Shown: positions 1-6,938 of the stretch, one piece after another
Layout: every line of letters starts with the position of its first letter
Position numbering within the stretch: position 1 is the stretch's first letter
Assembly: GCA_025774865.1 (NCBI GenBank)
Contig: JALGZO010000699.1
Location: forward strand, 1 to 6,940
Origin: a bacterium
Lineage (GTDB): Bacteria; ARS69
Direction of reading: 5' to 3'
Length of the DNA stretch: 6,940 nucleotides
The notes under the pieces: model-generated
The model's input: only the letters and a program-made list of their open reading frames with translations
Databases searched by the model: none
What the model was told of the DNA's origin: nothing
Made by a program: the position numbers and the translations under genes

Positions 1-411
1 GCAGACGTCACGGTCGTGCTCACCGGGAGCGAGAACGAGAGGTCGTTCGGCTCCGCTTTCCGCGCCCTCGAGTCAACCCGCGTCATCGATCTCATCGCGA
101 AGCTGTCCCTGCGCGAAGCGATGGGCGTGATCTCGCGGATCAACGTTCTCGTCTCCGCCAGCACCGGCCCCATGCACCTCGCGGCGGCTCTCGGAATCCC
201 GACCGTCTCGATGTTCTGCCCGCTGACCGCCTGCTCGCCGGAGCTGTGGGGGCCGCGAGGCAACCGAGCGGAGATCGTCCTTCCTTCGGACGGATTCTGC
301 CAGGACCGCTGCCCCGGTGATCCCCACGTGTGTCGATTCGAAGGTGGGATCGCGACGACGACGGTGTTCGAGAGGGTCATGGACCTGCTCGAGAGTCGCT
401 CCGCGGCGTAG
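1..411 (+). CDS. Glycosyltransferase family 9 (heptosyltransferase-type), C-terminal part, partial
   Basis: The reading frame is open at the first base of the window, so the true start lies upstream; 136 residues are visible. The fragment has the C-terminal nucleotide-sugar-binding part of GT9 enzymes, which transfer heptose or related sugars from ADP/nucleotide donors onto lipopolysaccharide core or other glycans at the cytoplasmic face of the inner membrane. Seen directly: a beta strand ending in LTGS near the start (residues 7-10), the family signature STGPMHLAAALG (about residues 54-65) followed by P-T-V-S-M-F, a conserved Trp in the LWGPRG stretch (about residue 83), and a late cysteine cluster (C100, C104, C111) common in this family before the final helix. 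It ends in TAG. The acceptor and sugar cannot be told from this fragment. The next gene lies 95 bases downstream on the same strand and is metabolically unrelated, so co-transcription is possible but not shown. Confidence 0.88.
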   Translation, partial: ADVTVVLTGSENERSFGSAFRALESTRVIDLIAKLSLREAMGVISRINVLVSASTGPMHLAAALGIPTVSMFCPLTACSPELWGPRGNRAEIVLPSDGFCQDRCPGDPHVCRFEGGIATTTVFERVMDLLESRSAA

Positions 412-506: not shown

Positions 507-1649
507 ATGGGTCGTGATTCCGTTCCCATCGTGCCGCCGATCTACCGCGGTACCGTGTATGCGTTCGACACCTCGGACGAACTGGTGGCCGCCATCGGCG
601 ATCACCACGAGAACTTCAGCTACGGTCGCTACGACAATCCGACGGTGATGGAGTTCGAGAAGGCGATCGCGTACCTGGAGGGGGCCGAACGCGGCGTAGC
701 GTTCGCCTCCGGGATGGCGGCGATCACCACCGCGCTCGTTGCGTGCCTGCCGGCGGGTGGACGCGTCGTTCGCCAACACGAGGTGTACGGAACGACGGCG
801 GAGTTCTTCCGCGAGATCATTCCGCGATTCGCCGACGAGGTCGTCACCGTCCCCGGGGCCGACCCCGACGCGCTCGAGCAGGCGATTCGCGAAGGATGTG
901 ACGTCGTCTACCTCGAGACGCCCATCAACCCGACGCTCGAGATCGTCGATCTCGAACGCATGTCGAAGGCGGCTCGCGACGTGGGGGCGATCAGCCTCGT
1001 GGACAACACCTTCTCGACGCCGCTCGGCCAGCGGCCCCGGGACCTCGGTATCGATGTCTCGCTCCACAGCGCGACGAAGTACCTCGGCGGCCACCATGAC
1101 GTGATCGCCGGCGTGCTCGCGACCTCGGACGAGCTGGGAGAGCGAATCTGGAACGCGCGCCGGATCCTCGGCGGCATCCTTTCGCCGGGGGACGCATTCC
1201 TGCTCCTCCGGGGACTGAAGACGTTGCGCCTGCGACTCGAGCACGCGACCGCCACGGCCGCGAGCCTCGCGAACCGACTCGCCCGCGATGCGCGCGTGGC
1301 GAGGGTCGGCTACCCCGGACTCGAGAGTCACCCGAGCCACCGCATCGCGGCCAGCCAGATGAGGAGCTTCGGCGCCATGATCGCGATCGATCTGAACGCC
1401 GATCGAGGCGGTGCCGAGCGATTCTTGAACGCGCTCACCGTCATCCGGCGAGCCGCCAGCCTCGGCGGGAACGAGTCGGTGGCGATGATGCCGGCCGAAG
1501 TGTCACACGCTCACGTACCGCCGGACGAGCGGCTCGCGATGGGAGTCACCGACTCGCTCATTCGGCTCTCGGTGGGCACGGAGCCGGAAGAGGATCTGGT
1601 CGCCGACCTCGAGCGCGGGTTCGCCGCGCTGGACAAGGTACCGGCCTAG
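507..1649 (+). CDS. Cys/Met-metabolism PLP-dependent enzyme (cystathionine gamma-synthase/lyase type)
   Basis: A 380-residue cytoplasmic PLP enzyme of the transsulfuration family (fold type I), about the usual length. Enzymes of this family make or cleave cystathionine or related thioethers in methionine/cysteine metabolism, usually as homotetramers. Seen motifs: YGRYDNPT (residues 39-46; the Tyr and Arg bind the cofactor phosphate of the neighbouring subunit), SGMAA (68-72), a cofactor-stacking Tyr in VYGTT (Y94), YLETPINP, DNTFSTP (D166 would pair with the pyridine nitrogen), SATKYLGGHHD with the Schiff-base lysine K191, SLGGNES (318-324) and the substrate-carboxylate arginine R353 in LIRLSVG. 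SLGG-x-ES resembles cystathionine gamma-synthase/gamma-lyase more than methionine gamma-lyase, but substrate choice cannot be settled by eye. ATG 507 is chosen because of its GGAG and because the family N-terminus begins close to the IVPPIY segment. The gene converges on the minus-strand gene ending at 1763. Confidence 0.92.
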   Translation: MGRDSVPIVPPIYRGTVYAFDTSDELVAAIGDHHENFSYGRYDNPTVMEFEKAIAYLEGAERGVAFASGMAAITTALVACLPAGGRVVRQHEVYGTTAEFFREIIPRFADEVVTVPGADPDALEQAIREGCDVVYLETPINPTLEIVDLERMSKAARDVGAISLVDNTFSTPLGQRPRDLGIDVSLHSATKYLGGHHDVIAGVLATSDELGERIWNARRILGGILSPGDAFLLLRGLKTLRLRLEHATATAASLANRLARDARVARVGYPGLESHPSHRIAASQMRSFGAMIAIDLNADRGGAERFLNALTVIRRAASLGGNESVAMMPAEVSHAHVPPDERLAMGVTDSLIRLSVGTEPEEDLVADLERGFAALDKVPA

Positions 1650-1762: not shown

Positions 1763-2632
1763 CTAGCCGCCGGTGACGCGTTCCCGCGCATCCTCGTAAG
1801 CGGCGCGAAGCAGGACGGAGTCGCCGATCGGCCTCGAGAGCCGATCCCAGAGAAGATAGATCGCGGGTTCGGCCGCCGGATCGACCCCGAGAGAGTTCAA
1901 CTCGTCTTCGCTCTCCGGGTCGAGCCACCGCACGGAGAGACGCCGGTCGTAGAGACGGAAGGCGATGTCGTGGAGCTCGCCGCCGCGTTTCGTCCCAGGG
2001 TCCGCCGCGATGATCAACAGCGGGCACGGCGCCTCGACCCGCAGCGCCGCCCGCCCGAGCTCCCCGATCCCCCGAGCGTCGAACGGCAATCGGCTGGCCC
2101 AGACCGCCAGCGACTCCTCGACGATCTCTCGCCACCGCTCATCACGCGTGACGACCGCGAGCTCCGCCAGGAAGCGCAACGCGATCCCGTTCCACGCGGG
2201 ATTCGGATCCGCCGCGACGACGAACTCGGGCCCGTCTCCCCGGCGATCCACGTTCCGGAACACTCTCTCCTCTTCGTCCCAGTACCGATCGACGAGCGCA
2301 CCCGCGAGCCGTTCGGCCGCCTCGAGCGCGCGACGATTTCCCGCGACGGCGTGGACGGCGAGAAGCCCGGATCCGGCGTCGCCCTGATCGCGCAGGGTTC
2401 CGCTCCCCTCGATCCCGAGCGAACGTCGCGCGAGCCCGTTTTCTTCGAAGGCCCCGTCGATCAGCACGTCGCCACTCCACCGCGCCGGCTGCGCCATTCG
2501 GTCGTCTCCGAACGCGCGCAGACAGGAGATGAGCGCCTGCTGCAGAACGAAGTTCGCGCCGACGGGAATCTTCCGCGACACGGGCGGGATCCCGACCCGG
2601 CTCCGCAGGGCCGCGTTGAGCCGGTAGTACGC
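1763..2632 (-). pseudogene. YyaL/DUF255-like protein, C-terminal part (downstream of a frame disruption)
   Basis: This is the 3' part of the gene that starts at 3507; it reads in a different frame from the 5' part. About 289 residues are coherent, beginning near the AYYRLNAALRS segment and ending with TAG. It looks like the alpha/alpha-toroid region of YyaL/SPATA20-type proteins: a long helical region with an LIDGAF element, LRDQGDAGSGLLAVH (compare the family's L-x-D-x-A ... L-L-x-L-Y helix), a VVAADPNPAWNGIALRFL segment (compare the family's D-x-x-x-P-S-x-N-S) and a C-terminal IYLLWDRLSRPIGD that lines up with the family's cysteine-containing AYVC...C..P-x-x-D ending, but with Leu and Ser in place of the two cysteines. 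No start codon with a ribosome site is seen at the junction, so it is probably not an independent gene. Either a sequencing or assembly error or a real mutation separates it from the N-terminal part. Confidence 0.72.
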
Positions 2633-3507
2633 CGGTTGAGGAACTGCAGCGTGTGGAGCGCCGCGGCCCCGACTTCGTCCTGTCCCGTCATGCGGTACCA
2701 GGAGGCGAGAATCGCGGCGATCTCCGCGTTCGGCCGCAGGAGCTTCTCGCGGTGGATGGCGCTCAGGTCCGACGTTGCGGGGGCGCGATGGAGCCCGCCC
2801 TCCACGGCGTCGAACATCTCGCTCGAGAGGAGCGCGCGCAGGTGCGAGTCCACCGTCTGGTGGGCGTCGCGGCGGTGCGGGCGCGTGACCCCGTACTCGA
2901 GAAGGAACGAGAGCGCGGACGGATCGAGGTCCTCGTGCACCGCGAGCAGCGCGAGTTCGCTCGCCCCGAACCGATCCAGCAGGACCCTCGCGACCTGGTT
3001 CGCGAACTTGGTCTCGCTCACCACGATGGGCTCGCTCTCCGGCCGCGGCAACAGCGCGGGGCGGCCGCGGAGATCCTTCATGTCCTCGAGGTAGAAGTTG
3101 AACTCCTCCGGGTCGAGCGGCGGAAACGTCCCGTACGAACGGCCCGCGCCGTCCAGGAAGTGAAACGAGGGAACGAGGCCGGACTCGAGCGAGTAGATCT
3201 CCCTCAGCTCCGGGTAGACGGTGACGTCGGCGTGAGTCGGCACGTAGTCCTCGTTGAGGCGGCGGACGACTTCCGGATCCGTGAAGTAGCGCGTCCGGAG
3301 AAGGAAGTGGTCCCAGTTCCACGGGGCGGTCAGCAGGAGGAAGACGGGCTTCTCCTGCCGGGTCGCTTCCTCGAACGTCGCTCGGTTGAATCTCGACCAG
3401 ACGACGCTGTCGGGAGGCGCCGCGCCCGGGGGCTGGGCGGTAGCGGTGGACGCAGCCGCGAACATCGCCGCGGCGAGGGCCATCTGCAGAAGTCGGGTCA
3501 GTGCCAT
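2461..3507 (-). CDS. Secreted thioredoxin-fold YyaL/DUF255-like protein, N-terminal part, frameshifted
   Basis: Starts at ATG 3507; the frame runs to 2461, but only residues 1 to about 292 (down to about 2632) are credible, the remainder being an arginine/serine-rich out-of-frame tail. Residues 1-24 form a signal peptide (an Arg, then an Ala-rich core, then TATA before QPPG), so the protein is probably exported. Residues about 36-125 resemble the DUF255 thioredoxin fold: FEEATRQEKPVFLLLTAP, then a helix, LNEDYVPTHADVTVYPEL, and LVPSFHFLDGAGRSYG with the cis-proline position. The redox motif is lost: the family's C-H-W-C-H reads W-N-W-D-H (63-67), and no cysteine occurs in the credible part. 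GGLHRAPATSD and IHREKLLRPNAEI (about 237-263) match the family's GGFHRY...PHFEKMLYDNA block. The repaired product would be about 581 residues, shorter than typical members (about 650-700), with the usual DADS region apparently missing. Function unknown; a non-redox, possibly carbohydrate- or protein-binding role is conceivable. Confidence 0.75.
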   Translation of the reverse strand: MALTRLLQMALAAAMFAAASTATAQPPGAAPPDSVVWSRFNRATFEEATRQEKPVFLLLTAPWNWDHFLLRTRYFTDPEVVRRLNEDYVPTHADVTVYPELREIYSLESGLVPSFHFLDGAGRSYGTFPPLDPEEFNFYLEDMKDLRGRPALLPRPESEPIVVSETKFANQVARVLLDRFGASELALLAVHEDLDPSALSFLLEYGVTRPHRRDAHQTVDSHLRALLSSEMFDAVEGGLHRAPATSDLSAIHREKLLRPNAEIAAILASWYRMTGQDEVGAAALHTLQFLNRRTTGSTRPCGAGSGSRPCRGRFPSARTSFCSRRSSPVCARSETTEWRSRRGGVATC

Positions 3508-3565: not shown

Positions 3566-4333
3566 CTAGAGGATACTCGTGATCCAGGTCCTCAGATACT
3601 CGATCCGACCGATCAGAAGAGAGATCCGAGCCATCACGGTGTAGCCGAAGCTGGCGCCGAAGGCGACCATCAGCACCCAGATGCCGGCGCGCGACGCTTT
3701 GCCGAAGGCCCCGGTGTGCTCCTTCGAGAAGTAGAAGTAGATCAGGCCGCACACCACTCCACCCACGATGATCACGTGAGAGACCGTGAACATGATGCCG
3801 TGGAGCCAGTTTTCCGGGCTGGTCGTGAAAAGCGGCAGCTCGAGCGTCTTCTGCACCTGCCGGATGAAATCCGACACGAGGTAGCGCGGCAGGTTCGTGC
3901 CGGCGGTGTAGCCGATGATGAAGGCCATCGCCCAGCGGGAGATCCACGCGATCGGCGGCACGAGCCGCAGCAGCAGGATGATCCCCAGGAACAGGGCGAT
4001 CAGGTACACGTACTCGGGCTCCTCGCCGCGGGCCGCTTCGACGATCCCCTCGAACTGCCTCGGCCAGATCTTCGCCATGAGGTTCGGAACCATCGTCTTC
4101 CAGAACCCCTGCACCATCCAGAACGCCGCCGACACTCCGACGAAGAGATGCTCCGCGAACTTGTAGAACGCGTTGTCCTTGTACAGGAAGCTGAAGATCA
4201 TCAACGTGAGCGCGGCCCCGACCCACAGCTGCACGGTCTGACCCGGATCCGGCTGCGTGAACAGGAGAACCGCGAAGCGCCCGAGCAGCAGAACTCCCAG
4301 GAGACCACCGACGATTTGCACGATCCGCTTCAT
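3566..4333 (-). CDS. Multi-pass integral membrane protein of unknown function
   Basis: A 255-residue polytopic inner-membrane protein I do not recognise. Hydrophobic segments lie at about residues 5-26, 34-51, 60-78 (with FVGVSAAFWMVQGFW), 108-126, 131-148, 180-202 and 214-240, giving six or seven helices. A polar stretch at about 80-107 with acidic EEPEY and another at about 150-178 (with DFIRQVQKTLELPL) form the main loops. Charged or aromatic residues near helix ends (the YKDNAFYKFAEH segment between helices 2 and 3) may be functional. The ATG at 4333 overlaps the TGA of the upstream gene in an ATGA arrangement, and a GAGG lies 9 bases before it inside the upstream gene, so the two are probably translationally coupled. 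It is the last of four tightly packed membrane genes; its likely partners are the other three. No enzyme motif was seen. Confidence 0.85.
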   Translation of the reverse strand: MKRIVQIVGGLLGVLLLGRFAVLLFTQPDPGQTVQLWVGAALTLMIFSFLYKDNAFYKFAEHLFVGVSAAFWMVQGFWKTMVPNLMAKIWPRQFEGIVEAARGEEPEYVYLIALFLGIILLLRLVPPIAWISRWAMAFIIGYTAGTNLPRYLVSDFIRQVQKTLELPLFTTSPENWLHGIMFTVSHVIIVGGVVCGLIYFYFSKEHTGAFGKASRAGIWVLMVAFGASFGYTVMARISLLIGRIEYLRTWITSIL

Positions 4334-5211
4334 CGTCTACCGCCTCGTTCCCGGCCCCGCGTCGCGAAGAACGAGATGTTGCCGAGGATGACGAACGCGA
4401 CGATGACGAGGTGCGCCACCGTCTGCGGGAACATGCGGATGAGCGCCGTCTTGCCGGCCTCCTCGAACTCGGGATACGCCTCCGTGACGAGCGCCTCGTA
4501 CTCCGCCGCGCCGAGCAACCCGCCCATGAGACCCTGGAGCTGCTTCGGGTAGTACGGGTAGAGCAGCGGCGCCTCCACCGCGGTGACGCCGCCGCCGACC
4601 GGAACGCCCACCGGATCCCCCGCGAACTGGACCCACTCCTTCAGACCCGGAAAGCCGGAGCCGATCGCGGCGACGAAGTCGAAGTCCCCGACCGTGCGGA
4701 TCCCCTCCATCATGGGGATCTGATCGACCGGCCGCGACGGGAAGTCGTCTCCCCAGCCCTCGTCCGCGGTCCACGTTCCCCTGAAGTCCGTCGTGATCGC
4801 GTGGATGACGCCCTGGTTCCCGACCTTGAAACCGAGATTCAAAAAGTCCTCCCCGTATCGCTTGTCGGGGAAACCCGTGGCGATGACGGTGTCCAGCACC
4901 CTCCGGATGAGAGGCGGCCCGGTCGCCCAGATCGTCAGGCAATAGAGCCTGAGATCCTTCTTGAGCACGTGCCGGGCGATGGCATGCGCCATCGGATCGT
5001 TCTCGGGGACCGTGCTCGGGCCGTAGTCCAGCGAGAGCAAGACTTTCGAGCCCGGCGGCAGCTCGTCGATCGCCTGGTAGAGAGTCTTCACGATCGGGCT
5101 CGGCGGCACCGGGGCCGGCCGTCCCAGCAGCAGCGGGATCGTGACGGCGACGGCAATCAGGACGAAGATCCAGCGACGATCCAGATGGCCGAGTTTCTCC
5201 AAGAAGTTCAT
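4330..5211 (-). CDS. Membrane protein anchored at both ends with a central soluble alpha/beta domain
   Basis: A 293-residue protein of unknown function. One hydrophobic helix lies at about residues 14-30, preceded by basic residues (D-R-R), and a second at about 262-284 ends in an Arg-rich tail (RGRERGGRR). Basic residues on the outer sides of both helices suggest both ends are cytoplasmic and the 230-residue middle faces the periplasm, by the positive-inside rule. The middle starts with a proline-rich linker (RPAPVPPSP), then KVLLSLDYGPSTVPENDP, a helix, and LRLYCLTIW: a strand-helix-strand pattern with a possible ligand-binding loop (D62, then GPSTVPEND). A glycine-rich GVPVGGGVTAVEAPLLYPYYP follows at about 202-222. 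It lies 4 bases after the upstream gene's stop and shares ATGA with the downstream gene. Membership of a known family is not claimed; a Rossmann-like fold is inference only. Confidence 0.85.
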   Translation of the reverse strand: MNFLEKLGHLDRRWIFVLIAVAVTIPLLLGRPAPVPPSPIVKTLYQAIDELPPGSKVLLSLDYGPSTVPENDPMAHAIARHVLKKDLRLYCLTIWATGPPLIRRVLDTVIATGFPDKRYGEDFLNLGFKVGNQGVIHAITTDFRGTWTADEGWGDDFPSRPVDQIPMMEGIRTVGDFDFVAAIGSGFPGLKEWVQFAGDPVGVPVGGGVTAVEAPLLYPYYPKQLQGLMGGLLGAAEYEALVTEAYPEFEEAGKTALIRMFPQTVAHLVIVAFVILGNISFFATRGRERGGRR

Positions 5212-5215
5212 GAGC

Positions 5216-5917
5216 CTAGTCGCCCCCGCCGAGGTGAGACCGCTCGATTCCGAGAATGAGGCGGAGCGAGTTGGACACGATACCCAGGGCGATCCCGATC
5301 TGGATCGTCCGCTGCCCGGCCAGGTTCGGGTTCGACATGATCCACGCGGACAGGTTCGGGATGTGGAAGTAGTCCGAGAGCGGCGCCGGCATCCATCCCG
5401 TGAGCCAGTGGCCCACCGGGGTCCGGCCGACCAGGATCACGAACGCCGCGAGCAAGAGCACGGTGGCTTCCGGCGTCTTCGCGCGGAACGCACGGTAGCT
5501 CGCGGAAGCCACGAAGAACGCGAGCAGCGAGAACATCGTGGCCTGACACGGCGCGAAGATCGCGATGTACAGCCAGTCGAAGAACAGCCGCGAGTCGGTG
5601 AGATCGCCGCCGGGCGTGAACGCAATCCCTCCCTCCCCGTCCGTGCCTACCATCGCGAGCCCGACGATCAGCATCACGAGAAAGCCGACGACCGTGACGA
5701 CGGAGAACTGCCACTCGTGATCGCGCCGCGACACCCTCACGAGGTGGATTCGGAGGAGGTTCCCGCCCCCGAGGACGAACGCGAATGCCGCGATGATGTC
5801 GAAGAAAACGGGGATGACGCGGTCGGCTTCGGCAAAGGGCTCATGAGGCACGAAATACGCGACGATCAGGATGACGCCGACGATGCCCGTGATGAACAGG
5901 GGAACATTACGCTTCAA
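5216..5917 (-). CDS. Six-helix integral membrane protein of unknown function, TTG start
   Basis: A 233-residue hydrophobic protein with likely membrane helices at about residues 5-24, 34-56, 70-91, 112-140, 149-164 and 204-224. A glycine- and acid-rich loop (GTDGEGGIAFTPGGDLTDS, 91-109) lies between helices 3 and 4, and a basic loop RVSRRDHEW (61-69) lies between helices 2 and 3, suggesting that the latter faces the cytoplasm. The start is TTG at 5917: it gives a natural basic N-terminus (M-K-R-N) and has a GGTGGAG ribosome site 8 bases before it. The gene follows the DUF6754-like gene by 28 bases and precedes the next by 4, so it belongs to the same operon. I recognise no family. A structural subunit or channel-like partner of the neighbouring anchored proteins is a reasonable guess, no more. 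Confidence 0.83.
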   Translation of the reverse strand: MKRNVPLFITGIVGVILIVAYFVPHEPFAEADRVIPVFFDIIAAFAFVLGGGNLLRIHLVRVSRRDHEWQFSVVTVVGFLVMLIVGLAMVGTDGEGGIAFTPGGDLTDSRLFFDWLYIAIFAPCQATMFSLLAFFVASASYRAFRAKTPEATVLLLAAFVILVGRTPVGHWLTGWMPAPLSDYFHIPNLSAWIMSNPNLAGQRTIQIGIALGIVSNSLRLILGIERSHLGGGD

Positions 5918-5925
5918 CGGCCGTT

Positions 5926-5932
5926 CTCCACC
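5926..5932 (-). promoter_or_regulatory. Ribosome binding site for the TTG-start membrane gene
   Basis: GGTGGAG on the minus strand, 8 bases before the TTG at 5917 and within the 28-base gap after the upstream stop. It is the best Shine-Dalgarno match in this operon and supports the unusual start codon. Confidence 0.6.
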
Positions 5933-5945
5933 AAGAAGAGACCGT

Positions 5946-6938
5946 TCACGACGAGCCTCCCCCGAAGAGCGTGTAGAAGAAGTCGTTCACGGCCTGGATC
6001 GGACCGCCCTCGACGAACTGGGCCAGGGTGGCGACGATCGTGCCGACGCCGATCATGACCATCGCGATGAACTTGCCGACGTCCTGTCCCTTGAGCGACC
6101 CGAGCATCTTCTCGTCTTGCGAGAGATACGCGCTGGCCGCGAACAGCTCTTCACCGATGAGCGTGTAGTCGCAAGCTGCGACGAAGAACGGGAGCTGCGT
6201 GGGCATCGCCGTACCCGCGATCTGAATCGCGCCGATCGAGTTGCCGGTCTCCGCGAGAATCAGGGACTCGGCGAAGAAAGCGCCCAGATAGAAGCAGGTG
6301 GCCGGCTTCTTTCGAATCATCAGCCCGTCCACGTGCGCGACGAATCCGAACTGTTCGTCGGTCACGTAGTAGATGCTGTCGTCGCGGTAGGCGTCGGGGC
6401 GTCCGGCGGAGAGGTACGCTTCCTTCACCGTTTCGCGCGCCGTGCTCATCACGAGCGAACGGCTCGTCGGCATGATGATGCTCGTCTCGTACTCGGCGAC
6501 CATCTTGGCGATCGACCCGAGGATCGTGATGCCCGCGACCGTCTGAACGTTGTCCATGTCCTGAATGCCCGAGATGTAGAGGACCGGCTGTCCCATCTCG
6601 GTGGCGCGCCCGACGGCTTCCGTCACGGCGTCCATGCCGGCGATCTTCCGCACGTACAGCTTTTCGCCGGCGTGCGCACGGGAGATGTACATCACGATCG
6701 CCCCGCACACCGCGAGCATGATCCACAGGGTCCAGAACCGACCCCGGTCGAACCACTGCCCCGACGGCGACACGGCGGCGGACGCTATCGAGACGCCCTC
6801 TCCCCCCGGGCCGACCGCGATGACCTGGTACGCATAGCCCACGCCGTTCTCGAGCCCGTTGTCACGCAGCGCGGTCGTTCCGGCGGGAACGGTCGCGGCT
6901 TCCTCGAACGGCCCACCGGAGGCGGACCGGAGGACCCG
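5946..6938 (-). CDS. Fibronectin type III plus DUF6754-like membrane protein, partial (N-terminus missing)
   Basis: The frame stays open to the window edge, so the GTG at 6842 is internal; 330 residues are visible. Residues 1-58 are the second half of a fibronectin type III-like domain: VLRS, then F-x-x-A-A-T-V, LRDNGLENGVGYAYQVIAVG with the typical Tyr-x-Tyr-x-V strand, and GGEGVSIAS. It would lie outside the membrane, probably after a signal peptide upstream of the window. A helix at 68-86 follows, then a roughly 200-residue soluble region: GQPVLYISGIQDMDNVQT, a helix, TSIIMPTSR, YYVTDEQFGFVAHVDG, FFAESLILAETGNSIGAIQIAGTAMPT and FFVAACDYTLIGEELFAA. A second helix lies at about 289-306 and the tail is Gly/Ser-rich. 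From memory this region matches DUF6754, a domain of unknown function; I could not check a database. It is the most upstream visible gene of the four-gene membrane operon. No catalytic motif is recognised. Confidence 0.85.
   Translation of the reverse strand, partial: RVLRSASGGPFEEAATVPAGTTALRDNGLENGVGYAYQVIAVGPGGEGVSIASAAVSPSGQWFDRGRFWTLWIMLAVCGAIVMYISRAHAGEKLYVRKIAGMDAVTEAVGRATEMGQPVLYISGIQDMDNVQTVAGITILGSIAKMVAEYETSIIMPTSRSLVMSTARETVKEAYLSAGRPDAYRDDSIYYVTDEQFGFVAHVDGLMIRKKPATCFYLGAFFAESLILAETGNSIGAIQIAGTAMPTQLPFFVAACDYTLIGEELFAASAYLSQDEKMLGSLKGQDVGKFIAMVMIGVGTIVATLAQFVEGGPIQAVNDFFYTLFGGGSS

Follow-up and report, generated by a model that had tools for sequence, protein, structure and literature searches.

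A conserved four-gene membrane cassette with a DUF6754 core, a candidate part of an ATP-driven inner-membrane machine

Introduction

In type IV pili and type II secretion systems (T2SS), PilM and GspL are actin-like ASKHA scaffolds, an arrangement in which a cytosolic ASKHA protein is docked on bitopic membrane proteins. The GlmL/MutL family (PF13941) includes the methylaspartate mutase accessory protein GlmL and ornithine Or-4, and a role as reactivation chaperone of glutamate mutase has been described for GlmL/MutL (PMC4682846). The Rnf and Nqr complexes offer a third point of comparison through the N-terminal barrel-sandwich of RnfC and NqrA. The locus reported here can be compared with each of these. 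Its membrane proteins recur with two further proteins, E1 and E2. The alignment of E1 spans the MutL domain in full, and E1 scores 217-232 bits against the GlmL equivalog NF040745 (below the cut-off of 475) and 207 bits against the Or-4 equivalog (below the cut-off of 600). Unlike GlmL, it carries about 120 extra C-terminal residues, and its partners are a membrane cassette, not glutamate mutase. The docking idea is like that of PilM and GspL, with E1 being of the MutL type by sequence. E2 shows sub-threshold similarity to the RnfC/NqrA barrel-sandwich, but lacks a redox motif and has a KOW-like C-terminus, and the Rnf/Nqr membrane partners are unrelated in sequence to the membrane proteins of the cassette.

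The first gene of the cassette is a strong member of Pfam DUF6754 (PF20539), a family without an assigned function. Searches of an open-access library found no system of such composition and no description of one. No papers naming DUF6754 or PF13941 were found in the same library, which is not proof of absence elsewhere, and fibronectin or glutamate mutase genes are not named in the main text of a P. limnophila essential-gene paper (PMC10632474).

Results

The stretch of DNA analysed (the window) spans the whole of a 6940-bp contig, one of 785 in its MAG. Four genes, A to D, occupy its minus strand, and the region upstream of gene A lies outside the contig. Gene A (5946-6938) is cut at its 5' end by the contig end, leaving 330 visible amino acids. 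It is followed by gene B (5216-5917; 233 amino acids, about six TM segments, a TTG start with GGAG upstream), gene C (4330-5211; 293 amino acids) and gene D (3566-4333; 255 amino acids, about six TM segments, with an ATGA overlap with C). The ORF coordinates agree with the intergenic gaps of 28, 4 and -4 bases given in the original prediction, which had also assigned the topologies FnIII-TM-soluble-TM to A and TM-soluble-TM to C and had called B and D polytopic. Hydropathy agrees throughout, with about six hydrophobic segments in each of B and D; the AF2 model of C has the same topology, and that of a full-length relative of A contains the FnIII domain.

A DUF255/thioredoxin-like gene (1763-3507, minus strand; PF03190, E 2.9e-7) has a signal-like N-terminus and appears frameshifted near 2640, so that its halves lie in different frames; the frameshift is either an assembly error or a real pseudogene. 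In two related loci (L013 and L015) the gene is in one frame and syntenic downstream of D. A scan found no sigma-70 promoter or terminator between D and this gene, which is possibly an operon mate in the window's family only. Convergent to the operon is a PLP-dependent Cys/Met metabolism enzyme of the cystathionine gamma-synthase family (507-1649, plus strand), and the C-terminal part of a family 9, heptosyltransferase-like glycosyltransferase (1-411, plus strand) is cut by the contig start.

Gene A matched DUF6754 with an E value of 9.5e-122 (405.5 bits against a cut-off of 27, profile positions 2-250 of 257), and shares 62% identity with another copy in its own genome. The domain (6018-6764, minus strand, 406 bits) shows the highest conservation in the cassette. 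The C-terminal part of an FnIII domain is encoded at 6759-6938 (minus strand, boundary approximate), too truncated for a Pfam FnIII match to be obtained with the window's gene A. A profile of the full-length A family did match titin FnIII (best E 4.7e-36), and the FnIII region of an AF2 model of A gave a VIA Z of 13.7 (rmsd 2.3, 97 aligned); the matches listed in this fold search were FnIII rows, so the comparison covers the FnIII domain. The AF2 model of a full-length A from locus L016 (pLDDT 90) comprises a signal/TM segment, FnIII, a TM segment, an alpha/beta domain and a final TM segment, a topology from which FnIII is predicted to be periplasmic and DUF6754 cytosolic.

The system had originally been placed around an FnIII-DUF6754-like protein, and FnIII as its centre was not supported. 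Mean column conservation in A was 0.77 for DUF6754 versus 0.43 for FnIII. In the DUF6754 domain 70 of 186 columns were at least 90% conserved, and the invariant polar residues are R206, E209, Q291, R304, E319, E325, Q334, D352, E358, E359, D381 and K384. In a further cassette of Zixibacteria A is only about 290 amino acids long and has no FnIII, with B, C and D again after it, and FnIII is missing from the short A' proteins of a whole cassette class. FnIII as the core was rejected on its low conservation and on the FnIII-less cassettes; it is an accessory domain, and the DUF6754 domain, predicted to be cytosolic, is the conserved core.

No Pfam or NCBIfam family was found for B, C or D, and PDB sequence searches with these three proteins, E1 and E2 returned nothing convincing. 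The original remark that none of the four has a recognisable transporter or secretion motif agrees with these searches, in which none of the proteins matched a known transporter or secretion complex. In its AF2 model (pLDDT 95.7) C folds as a Rossmann-like domain between two TM segments, and this domain is predicted to be periplasmic from an N-terminal RR and a basic C-terminus under the positive-inside rule. A fold search with C found nothing beyond generic Rossmann-like matches, of which 1kjn_A scored best (Z 10.0, rmsd 3.8, 140 aligned); no PDB fold stands out, and these matches were left out of functional inference. Comparisons with hhalign gave no support for homology between A and C (probability 6.2 percent), B and D (0.6 percent), A and E2 (0.6 percent) or C and E2 (0.2 percent). 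One third-cassette B (L025:12755-14530), as read by eye, contains an FG-GAP/VCBS-like repeat insertion of about 330 amino acids between TM regions.

Searching a single genome for each species gave over 570 relatives of A; the 80 best came from Zixibacteria, Eisenbacteria, Planctomycetota, Acidobacteriota, Neomarinimicrobiota, Caldithrix/Hatepunaea, Fermentibacteria/Aegiribacteria and others. When every ORF at these loci was searched with profiles, the A-B-C-D order was found again. Gene order was counted for the 103 DUF6754 genes with at least 3.2 kb of sequence downstream. B, C and D directly followed in 97 of these, from at least seven phyla, with median A-B, B-C and C-D spacings of 9, 2 and -1 bases. 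Conserved co-occurrence in the same order in distant genomes, which had been put forward as the test of a system, was thus observed, and the identical order indicates that the four-gene operon is not a product of chance. The six exceptions include L057 and L066, in which the order is kept with extra genes inserted, L114, in which A is duplicated, and L109, which is an ORF-ordering artefact. Across 101 cassettes the pairwise distances of A, B, C and D were correlated (mirror-tree r 0.80-0.90). The products of A to D may form one stoichiometric complex.

The commonest neighbours of the cassette are the genes for E1 and E2, two soluble cytosolic proteins. The E1 protein, of about 610 amino acids, matched PF13941, the MutL/GlmL-family ASKHA domain, with an E value of 1.6e-128 (429.7 bits against a gathering threshold of 27); the E1 of the window's own genome, on another contig (G000:C549), scored 430.5 bits. 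Across phyla E1 is 63-79% identical to the reference, with the invariant motifs DCGSTTTK, VDIGGATTD and SGG..SHAP (phosphate-1, phosphate-2 and adenosine). All ASKHA nucleotide-binding motifs are kept, and E1 is a putative ATPase by its sequence. E2, of about 375 amino acids, has a barrel-sandwich N-terminus and a KOW-like C-terminus and belongs to no confident family. The similarity of its N-terminal half to RnfC_N, NQRA_N and Biotin_lipoyl was sub-threshold: representatives scored 20.2 bits against RnfC_N, below the cut-off of 25.6, and six of 23 members matched RnfC_N at E <0.1 (best 1.2e-6). No lysine was conserved at 95% or more in E2, whereas a biotin or lipoyl carrier of a decarboxylase pump would have a modifiable one in the hairpin of the barrel. 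The two proteins are fused in Neomarinimicrobiota L055 and likely also in L068 and L082, which contain matching long ORFs. Two contigs of genome G084 (C30 and C34) and one of G010 (C25) contain diverged frames of 839-924 amino acids with E2-like parts, in G084 also with MutL, which suggests a second E1-E2-like fusion family in these two genomes.

Two small genes precede E1, namely PH (membrane PH-like, named by sequence appearance) and F (about 120 amino acids). The full order PH-F-E1-E2-A-B-C-D was found in Planctomycetota, Acidobacteriota, Aegiribacteria and the window's own family. Only PH, F, E1 and E2 recur as partners, with no ABC ATPase subunit among them, and in the neighbourhoods examined neither pilins or pseudopilins nor secretion ATPases were recognised as recurring. 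Neighbours beyond the eight genes are inconsistent and point to no cargo; fatty-acid-, nuo-, ExbB/D- and MetK-AhcY-like neighbours, named by eye, are lineage-limited and were judged incidental. In seven Zixibacteria loci (L024, L037, L047, L051, L063, L078 and L080) a gene for a secreted, C-terminally anchored protein of about 255 amino acids, n4, adjoins E1, mostly between E1 and E2. The original reading of a four-gene system stands in its fixed order and in the lack of known families for B, C and D, and falls short in missing the putative ATPase E1 and its partner E2, both of which are nearly always found along with the cassette but lie outside the window.

The association was also examined across whole genomes. 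Among 148 Planctomycetota genomes, A was present in 39 and C in the identical 39. Strong MutL (E1) was found in 38 genomes and E2 in 36, of which 37 and 35, respectively, are shared with the 39 cassette carriers (Fisher p 1e-36 to 3e-28, values uncorrected for shared ancestry). In five genomes (G035, G116, G141, G082 and G095) A and C are on different contigs or Mb apart and are still co-retained, and A, C and E1 are likewise separated in several cassette-bearing Planctomycetota genomes. Such co-retention of unlinked genes argues that the association of the cassette with E1 and E2 is not mere linkage. The exceptions, for which MAG gaps are possible, are G044 and G055, where the cassette is present and E1 and E2 were not detected, and G126, where E1 and E2 are present and A and C were not detected. 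GlmE (PF06368) occurred in a single one of the 148 genomes, one without the cassette; its absence from all 39 carriers rejects a glutamate mutase context. A defence context was also rejected, as PADLOC models gave no match at E 0.01 for A-D, E1 or E2.

Some genomes contain two to four diverged cassettes. In Zixibacteria all 60 genomes have DUF6754, in 2-6 copies; ABCD commonly occurs as three diverged copies in tandem, with a fourth cassette lacking FnIII. A concatenated tree separated first, second and third copies into clades of their own, and the window cassette clustered with the second copies as well as with Eisenbacteria, Planctomycetota and Acidobacteriota. Each of the five genomes examined from the window's phylum has a pair of DUF6754 genes together with one full MutL and one E2; E1-E2-A-B-C-D is contiguous in G001 and G003, and the window-type cassette has neither E1 nor E2 beside it. 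The second cassettes of G001-G003, E1/E2-linked in G001 and G003, grouped with the third copies. The second cassette of the window's own genome (L002/L004, contig C71; L106) grouped with Planctomycetota and Neomarinimicrobiota and not with those of G001-G003, reflecting either horizontal transfer or MAG contamination (8.3% reported). At L114 (6542-8318) two tandem FnIII-less DUF6754 genes stand before B-C-D. In six Zixibacteria loci (L114-L118 and L120) a nucleotidyltransferase-like gene comes after D of the FnIII-less cassette, and in most of them MetK- and AhcY-like genes, named by eye, then follow.

Discussion

It is tentatively proposed that the window holds one ABCD cassette of an undescribed, widely conserved, ATP-driven inner-membrane machine whose full form is PH-F-E1-E2-A-B-C-D. 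B and D would form the membrane core, with A presenting DUF6754 to the cytosol and an optional FnIII to the periplasm, and C presenting its Rossmann-like domain to the periplasm. E1 would bind and hydrolyse ATP and dock on DUF6754 by way of E2, a barrel-sandwich/KOW adaptor, and perhaps also of F. Its cycle would drive a conformational change across the inner membrane, much as GlmL and the diol-dehydratase-reactivase ATPases act on soluble partners. ATP drive is suggested by E1 being the sole evident energy-using component, coupling through E2 and DUF6754 by these being the most conserved cytosolic surfaces available, and periplasmic contacts by the C and FnIII domains. The most likely work of such a machine would be the movement or assembly of an envelope component, and the presence of two to four diverged cassettes with a single E1/E2 probably reflects hetero-oligomers or cargo-specific variants.

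Four alternatives were weighed. The ABCD proteins could instead be an enzyme bound to the membrane, perhaps one that modifies lipids or a polymer with active sites in DUF6754 and/or C, for which E1/E2 would be an ATP-dependent reactivase or cofactor loader and not a motor. This is rather unlikely. It draws on the membership of E1 in a family described as a reactivation chaperone (PMC4682846) and on the enzyme-like density of invariant polar residues in DUF6754, but no catalytic family or cofactor motif was recognised in A-D, and the recurrent neighbours included no recognised adenosylcobalamin enzyme.

A respiratory or ion-translocating complex, in which E2 would correspond to RnfC/NqrA, C to RnfG/NqrC, and B and D to the 6-TM RnfA/RnfE, is improbable. 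The numbers of bitopic and 6-TM subunits are similar, some E2 members match RnfC_N, NQRA_N or Biotin_lipoyl, and the upstream region in some Planctomycetota contains a gene that was named nuoN-like by eye. The barrel-sandwich fold is however generic, and no flavin or Fe-S family was found. RnfA and RnfE hold Cys-ligated [2Fe-2S], and neither B nor D has a Cys conserved at 95% or more.

There is also little likelihood of a signalling or sensing complex in which FnIII and C would read the periplasm and DUF6754 would relay to E1/E2 in the cytosol. Soluble domains do lie on both predicted sides of the membrane, and the diverged cassettes of one genome could read different inputs. Such a relay would, however, need no pair of polytopic subunits; FnIII is dispensable, and no recurrent output domain, be it a kinase, GGDEF, helix-turn-helix or other one, was recognised. 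That four unrelated genes merely share an operon is scarcely credible, given that the order is conserved in 97 of 103 cassettes, that an identical set of 39 genomes retains the genes even where they are not linked, and that their distances are correlated.

If an ATP-driven machine of the proposed kind exists, it might constitute a new class of trans-membrane machine that employs a GlmL-type ASKHA ATPase in place of an ABC, AAA or F/V-type motor, although this further step is somewhat doubtful. A similarly guarded suggestion is that the class could be ancient and common to Zixibacteria, Planctomycetota, Acidobacteriota, Eisenbacteria and their relatives, with hetero-cassettes having multiplied in some lineages. 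B, C, D and E2 belong to no confident family, yet the system occurs in 60 of 60 Zixibacteria sampled and in about a quarter of Planctomycetota. Strong constraint, seen in this breadth and in the identity of E1 across phyla, points to an important function that current annotation has missed. The proposed reading would provide a role for a DUF and would rid one branch of the GlmL-like ATPases of a misleading name, 'glutamate mutase L'; the eight genes offer a defined target for genetics in culturable Planctomycetota.
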